Source of the DNA: Clostridiales bacterium 38_11 | Lineage (GTDB): Bacteria; Bacillota; Clostridia; Tissierellales; Dethiosulfatibacteraceae | Length of the DNA: 41,697 nt | Reading direction: 5' to 3' | NCBI GenBank assembly: GCA_001509345.1 | Contig: LGGM01000003.1 | Location: 1-41,697, forward strand | In this document: one piece after another, positions 236 to 24,531 of the stretch | Layout: each line of letters starts with the position of its first letter | Numbering within the stretch: position 1 is the stretch's first letter | Position numbers and translations under genes: made by a program | Notes under the pieces: model-generated | What the model saw: the letters and a program-made list of their open reading frames with translations, nothing else | Told to the model about the DNA's origin: nothing | The model's database searches: none

Positions 236-411
236 CACTTTTTGCTGATTTTTTGATATTAGATTTTCGTTGAAATTTCAATATTGTAAGGCAAATTACA
301 GACCACTAGGAGCCGTGGTTATTGATAGTCCTTCCGATTAAAAATATAATCTCTAATTCATTCGTGTTAACAAAAATTTAACATTAACTTCATGAATTTT
401 TATTCGGATTT

Positions 412-480
412 ACAGGGTTCTTGGGTTCAGGTGGTGTTTTAAATGCCATCTGAACCTTAGCACTGTTAGTCATCGGATAA
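412..480. repeat. Dispersed structured repeat, copy A (internally deleted)
   Basis: acagggttcttgggttcaggtggtgttttaaatgccatctgaaccttagcactgttagtcatcggataa matches 24396-24526 except for a 60-nt segment present only in the latter; 11-bp hairpin at 424-434/446-456. Confidence 0.8.
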
Positions 481-17371: not shown

Positions 17372-17388
17372 TTGCTTGATAAAAAAGC

Positions 17389-17487
17389 CTTATCAGGAGA
17401 GGTGGAGGGACGGGCCCTATGAAACCCGGCAGCCAATGCCAGTTATGGTGTGAGGTGCCAATTCCCGCGGTATATCCGGAAGATGAG
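17389..17487 (+). ncRNA. SAM-I (S-box) riboswitch aptamer
   Basis: cttatcaggagaggtggagggacgggccctatgaaacccggcagcc...ggtgccaattcc...ccggaagatgag; P1 cttatc/gatgag; directly upstream of metK. Confidence 0.95.
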
Positions 17488-17505
17488 GACCAATATTTGG
17501 ACTAT

Positions 17506-24363: not shown

Positions 24364-24391
24364 ATTATACATTATTTTTTTAAATTATCAA
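24364..24391 (-). promoter_or_regulatory. Predicted promoter of the mreB-like gene, abutting the repeat edge
   Basis: Minus strand TTGATA (24386-24391) N16 TATAAT (24364-24369). Confidence 0.55.
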
Positions 24392-24526
24392 CAAGGTTCT
24401 TGGTTCTTGGGTTCAGGTGGAGTTTCAAATGCCATCTGAACCTTAGAAACCGTTATCCAGAGACTCTACAGTGCTTATCTACCACTTATAGAAGTGGGGA
24501 TCTTAGCACTGTTAGTCATCGGATAA
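24388..24526. repeat. Dispersed structured repeat, copy B (full)
   Basis: Two nested hairpin units (24410-24442 and 24453-24526); matches copy A on both sides of a 60-nt segment absent there. Confidence 0.8.
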
Positions 24527-24531
24527 AGTTC

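Follow-up and report, generated by a model that had tools for sequence, protein, structure and literature searches.

The structured repeat flanked by an mreB-like gene on one side and a gene for a serine dehydratase alpha chain on the other in Clostridiales bacterium 38_11 is very probably a PATE (palindrome-associated transposable element), here a nonautonomous, noncoding element of ∼130 bp with two subterminal hairpins, moved in trans by an HUH/Y1 single-strand transposase of the IS200/IS605 type. The window, by which we mean the whole 41,697-nt stretch of DNA that was analyzed, holds one full-length copy. A mobile element of this kind, one of the possibilities raised when the sequence was first read without database searches, is supported because the copies have empty sites without duplication, a fixed target, conserved ends, covarying hairpins, and a left end (LE) like that of IS605. 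The placement of the target in the left flank, the subterminal position of the hairpins, the lack of duplication, and the strand orientation of the ends together argue for single-strand transposition as practiced by IS200/IS605 elements.

PATEs have been described mainly from halophilic archaea. The repeat appears to represent a new PATE-like family, since it shows the features by which PATEs are defined (PMC3119063), except that kinship to IS605 was seen at only one of its two ends. No Rfam family and no published description of the repeat was found, within a partial coverage of the literature.

Boundaries and Architecture of the Element

The element of the window occupies positions 24387–24522 on the minus strand, as defined by the empty site in a congener and by an alignment of 49 copies. 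The minus strand is the top strand of this copy, which reads 5′ CCGATGAC...CTTGTTGAT 3′. Across the family, the top strand extends from CCGATGAC to CTGTTGAT over ∼129 bp, with a range of 129–136 bp. The window copy measures 136 bp because of a small internal duplication, a copy-specific tandem GTTCTTG-GTTCTTG in the right end (RE; ∼24396–24410) whose extra bases occur in 1 of the 49 copies. The sequence-only reading had assigned a full-length copy to 24388–24526. The copy is indeed complete, but the empty sites move its boundaries to 24387–24522 and assign 24523–24527 to the target, a pentamer TTTAT on the minus strand (ATAAA on the plus strand) that copies and empty sites alike identify as host-derived left flank, outside the element. 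At the other extremity, the last element bases form the right-end terminal pentamer TTGAT (24387–24391, minus strand), as seen from a comparison of 56 right ends. Terminal inverted repeats are absent, CCGATGAC and CTGTTGAT not being inverted repeats of each other in the 49-copy alignment. The element contains no gene or open reading frame, and at 129–136 bp, it is too short for a transposase.

Both hairpins lie on the minus strand and are supported by folding and covariation. The RE hairpin (24410–24442) pairs GGTTCAGGTGG at 24410–24420 with CCATCTGAACC at 24432–24442. The nested LE hairpin (24453–24526), the inner part of which resembles IS605 left ends, is built from the stems TTATCC/GGATAA (24453/24521), GACT/AGTC (24462/24514), and ACAGTGCT/AGCACTGT (24468/24505) and from an inner stem CCACTT/AAGTGG (24482/24492). 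All of these stems are present exactly where they had been noted before. The outermost four pairs of the LE hairpin include the flanking target TTAT, and GGATAA is nearly invariant across the family. Compared with dinucleotide shuffles, the window copy folds with z = −6.6 as single-stranded DNA and z = −6.7 as RNA, and 0 of 200 shuffles folded as well.

Insertion Sites and Target

The flanks of ten copies from the genome holding the window (G000) were searched in its congener G001, an Eubacteriales MAG, and seven loci could be aligned. Five of them (the window copy, L003, L012, L014, and L016) are precise empty sites in G001; the remaining two are occupied in both genomes. At the five empty sites, the joined flanks restore the site, and the readable junctions show neither duplicated nor missing bases. 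For example, G000 reads GGTTTGT, then the element, then TAGAACC, whereas G001 reads GGTTTGCTAGAACC. The target pentamer is also present in the G001 empty sites.

In 55 left flanks, the element lies 3′ of a TTTAT-like pentamer that stays in the flank. The exact TTTAT occurs in 25 of these, and the successive positions carry T (84%), T (85%), T (80%), A (82%), and T (95%). The last five bases of the right end are TTGAT in 45 and TTAAT in 9 of 56 ends (54 of 56 together), beyond which the same 56 ends reveal no flank consensus. The target repertoire comprises TTTAT, TTGAT, and ATTAT, the same set as in group A IStrons (PMC4227781). A small, noncoding, dispersed, high-copy element might also be the MITE of a DDE transposon, which would have terminal inverted repeats and would duplicate its target. 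However, this origin is contradicted by five empty sites that lack a target duplication, by the absence of terminal inverted repeats, and by a copy whose left pentamer is not the same as its right one. We regard it as wholly improbable.

A terminator-like hairpin with a T-run immediately precedes 13 of 57 insertion points in G000 and G001 and 80 of 1950 control TTTAT/TTAAT sites, the controls being mostly coding sites and the T-runs themselves containing the target, and we make no claim of targeting from these counts.

Copy Number and Spread

Further copies are abundant. The genome holding the window has at least 35 element loci, of which 21–23 are full length, and copies are also numerous in the congeners G001 (at least 27) and G002. 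Copies inside one genome are on average 90–92% identical; thus, no very recent transposition is seen. With a covariance model built from the 49 copies, relatives were found in at least 15 of 249 genomes of the order and in at least 30 of 391 genomes sampled from the class Clostridia, both figures being lower bounds because few candidates were scored per genome. Collections of phage, plasmid, and viral contigs gave no match to the element.

Covariation and the Small-RNA Alternative

Within the genus, covariation is modest, with 18 doubly changed cells against 9.4 in shuffled alignments. Class-wide, the stems covary strongly: 86 cells are changed on both sides against 38.9 ± 4.4 after shuffling, and 29 pairs against 20.5, values that 0 of 500 shuffles reach. 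Slid controls on the same alignment gave 17–52 doubly changed cells. The LE stems ACAGTGCT/AGCACTGT, ACAATTC/GAATTGC, and CCGCCACTTA/TAAGTGGCGG are interchangeable in this way. Both the covariation and the relation to IS ends described below uphold the initial view of a structured mobile repeat. In most copies, the top strand of the RE stem keeps a conserved A·C mismatch (135 A·C vs. 38 G·T cells), which recalls the mismatches that single-strand transposases use (PMC8266576); on the plus strand of the window, these mismatches read as G·U pairs.

It is useful to weigh here the proposal that the repeat spread because it benefits its host, either as a conserved small RNA or as an element of mRNA processing. 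Strong hairpins, covariation, a mostly intergenic location, and plus-strand G·U pairs in place of top-strand A·C mismatches would all fit such an RNA. However, covariation and top-strand mismatches are equally expected of single-stranded DNA hairpins bound by a transposase. Copies occur in both orientations relative to genes, and Rfam searches at gathering and permissive thresholds returned only chance-level matches for the element, none of them above the gathering score. Moreover, the patchy presence between congeners and the insertion into a comM-like gene in genome G487 look selfish. A small-RNA function is not needed to explain the data, and we consider it very unlikely.

Kinship with IS605 Left Ends and the Putative Mobilizing Enzyme

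The LE hairpin resembles, in both sequence and nesting, the left ends of IS605 elements with tnpA. At Y1/TnpB loci of three genomes (G030, G248, and G287), the covariance model matches sequences immediately 5′ of tnpA and in the same orientation as that gene. The match in G030, a decayed element, has E = 0.0016, and the other two are weak (E = 0.18 and 0.45). In G248, where tnpA and tnpB are intact, the whole nested LE hairpin aligns (TAGTGCgTAAGTCTCCCAuCUUCUACAAGTGGGAGATGcaAGCACTA). Palindrome kinship to IS605-type ends was seen for the LE, the RE hairpin matching none of the IS605 right ends seen. The IS605 elements with a matching LE sit 3′ of TTTAAC, not TTTAT, as read by eye. Because guide sequences within the element set the target of IS608 (PMC5934647), this difference is compatible with the same enzyme.

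An omega-RNA-like relic of an IS200/IS605-type end had also been envisaged for this repeat. In favor of a TnpB-guided relic of an IS605 right end, the inner hairpin CCCACTTCTATAAGTGGG does resemble the RE hairpin of an IS605 in G004. However, once the outer stem is taken in, the extended match is with the left ends that precede tnpA, and neither G000 nor G001 contains a match to the TnpB domain (PF07282). We give this reading almost no credence.

Longer copies in which the same ends enclose a transposase gene, another suggestion of the sequence-only reading, did not appear: when the model was run on Y1 loci, an incomplete sample, it revealed no transposase gene flanked by both ends. For this reason, the mobilizing enzyme is inferred to be an IS605 TnpA or a RAYT-type relative.

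RAYT genes also raise the prospect of a REP/RAYT-type system, in which a domesticated Y1 transposase (RAYT) spreads hairpins as in REPtrons. In G000, one RAYT-like Y1 gene is intact and another survives as a remnant, two element copies adjoin a RAYT-like gene in G487, and a degenerate copy adjoins a RAYT fragment in G248. In all, an association of element and RAYT gene was seen at two loci (L319 and L285). However, the G487 copies are insertions into the adjacent comM-like gene, most of the RAYT genes examined have no element within 1.5 kb, and no copy lies near the G000 gene. In G001, with its at least 27 copies, no Y1 transposase was detected, a point that weighs on the IS605 reading as well. 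In addition, the GTAG-type tetranucleotide is absent from the hairpin foot in the 49-copy alignment, and REPs differ from these ∼130-bp elements, whose ends are defined and whose two hairpins are unlike each other. A REP/RAYT-type system is therefore an unlikely, though not negligible, account.

Under the PATE reading, the transposase would bind both hairpins on the single-stranded top strand and would cut at two points, 3′ of TTTAT in the flank and 3′ of TTGAT at the right terminus. A single-stranded circle would thereby be excised and then joined 3′ of a new TTTAT, the target being chosen, as in IS608, through base pairing to element sequence. Copies would later decay via deletions at short repeats beside the hairpins. 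More speculatively, the repeats may form a class-wide lineage of two-hairpin parasites that has outlived any single autonomous IS by relying in trans on diverse Y1 transposases, whether IS605 TnpA or RAYT, with hairpins that co-evolve by compensatory change and that serve in some genomes as a scaffold for tandem arrays of small mobile modules. This broader picture is possible but less likely than not.

Comparison with Known Systems

The closest parallel is provided by the PATEs of Haloquadratum walsbyi (PMC3119063), which likewise have near-terminal palindromes, no terminal inverted repeats, no target duplication, and no gene. They also show IS605-related ends, a kinship seen here at the LE, as well as repeat-mediated core deletion (PMC3119063) and, in some cases, targeting by other small repeats, both of which recur here. 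By comparison, the element described here is bacterial (Clostridia), is shorter at ∼130 bp, and consists almost wholly of two unlike hairpins; one recognizable architecture extends across a class, and the partner transposase is putative. A bacterial, ends-only IS605 derivative is known from Halanaerobium hydrogeniformans (PMC7290912); that PATE-like sequence is a single 271-nt remnant with part of tnpB, whereas ours is an amplified family without tnpB.

Among autonomous elements, IS608 and ISDra2 (PMC5934647, PMC2806898) also insert 3′ of a short T-rich site kept in the left flank, which for ISDra2 is TTGAT (PMC2806898), and have subterminal hairpins at both ends. In contrast, the present element has neither tnpA nor tnpB, and its hairpins are much larger. 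Group A IStrons (PMC4227781), found in Firmicutes, likewise lie 3′ of TTGAT, ATTAT, or TTTAT, but they carry a group I intron and open reading frames and end in TCAG. REP/REPIN-RAYT systems (PMC8266576) resemble the element in that hairpin repeats, mostly intergenic, are tied to Y1 transposases; REPs, however, are 20–50 nt long and have a GTAG-type tetranucleotide that the element lacks.

A bacterial PATE-like family that is well bounded, covariance-modeled, and spread over Clostridia, and for which empty sites and an exact target are known, may be useful in several ways. First, it would make it possible to test directly which Y1 enzyme mobilizes ends-only elements in trans. Second, it would allow a test of whether element sequence determines the target. 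Finally, the covariance model aids annotation, since such repeats fragment assemblies (as in G016 and G032) and can resemble regulatory RNA.

Decay, Nested Modules, and Neighboring Features

The window also contains a reduced copy (408–476, minus strand; target 477–481), in which both ends are kept and the LE hairpin is gone. A second copy had been proposed at 412–480; it exists, but the empty-site correction places it at 408–476. Because G001 holds a whole element at the same place, G000 has lost what lay between two CTTAG repeats. The reduced copy is thus, judging from this comparison, an old full copy whose LE hairpin was deleted between the CTTAG repeats. Hairpin loss at different short repeats is seen in further copies.

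Several additional arrangements deserve mention. Tandem “half left ends” recur in G000 and G001 (L010, L168, L171, L173, L184, L241, L244, L252, and L254). Each consists of ∼34 nt of the LE, cut in the hairpin loop immediately after CCACTTCTAT and joined to a full element (CCGATG...). They possibly reflect aberrant joining by TnpA, since the hairpin loop resembles the target; slippage at TAT is an alternative. In G016, copies at L125, L197, L203, and L205 contain one to three middle modules of ∼50 nt (AAGTAGATAGCCAAAATC...GATTTTGTGCTAGTCACTT). By eye, ∼35 of 40 bases of this module agree with an insert in the RE-hairpin region of a G030 IS605 (L140, ∼1640–1700). The module may be another small mobile repeat with palindromes as its targets, comparable to SMR-A of Haloquadratum. 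An open reading frame suspected in the long G016 copies (...EYYTYIKSKI*) proved to be this nested noncoding module. In G487 (L342, 3299–4663), a RAYT-like transposase is followed, as an in-frame fusion, by the comM-like gene that two element copies interrupt.

At the window insertion itself (24364–24391), the TTGAT end creates a near-consensus promoter, TTGATA-16-TATAAT (11 of 12 positions), upstream of the mreB-like gene. The congener G001, which lacks this insertion, has a poorer −35 there. Promoter donation as a general role of the TTGAT end was rejected, −10-like hexamers at 16–18 nt not being enriched (5 of 53). Elsewhere in the window, Rfam identifies a SAM riboswitch (RF00162, 74 bits) at 17387–17489 on the plus strand.
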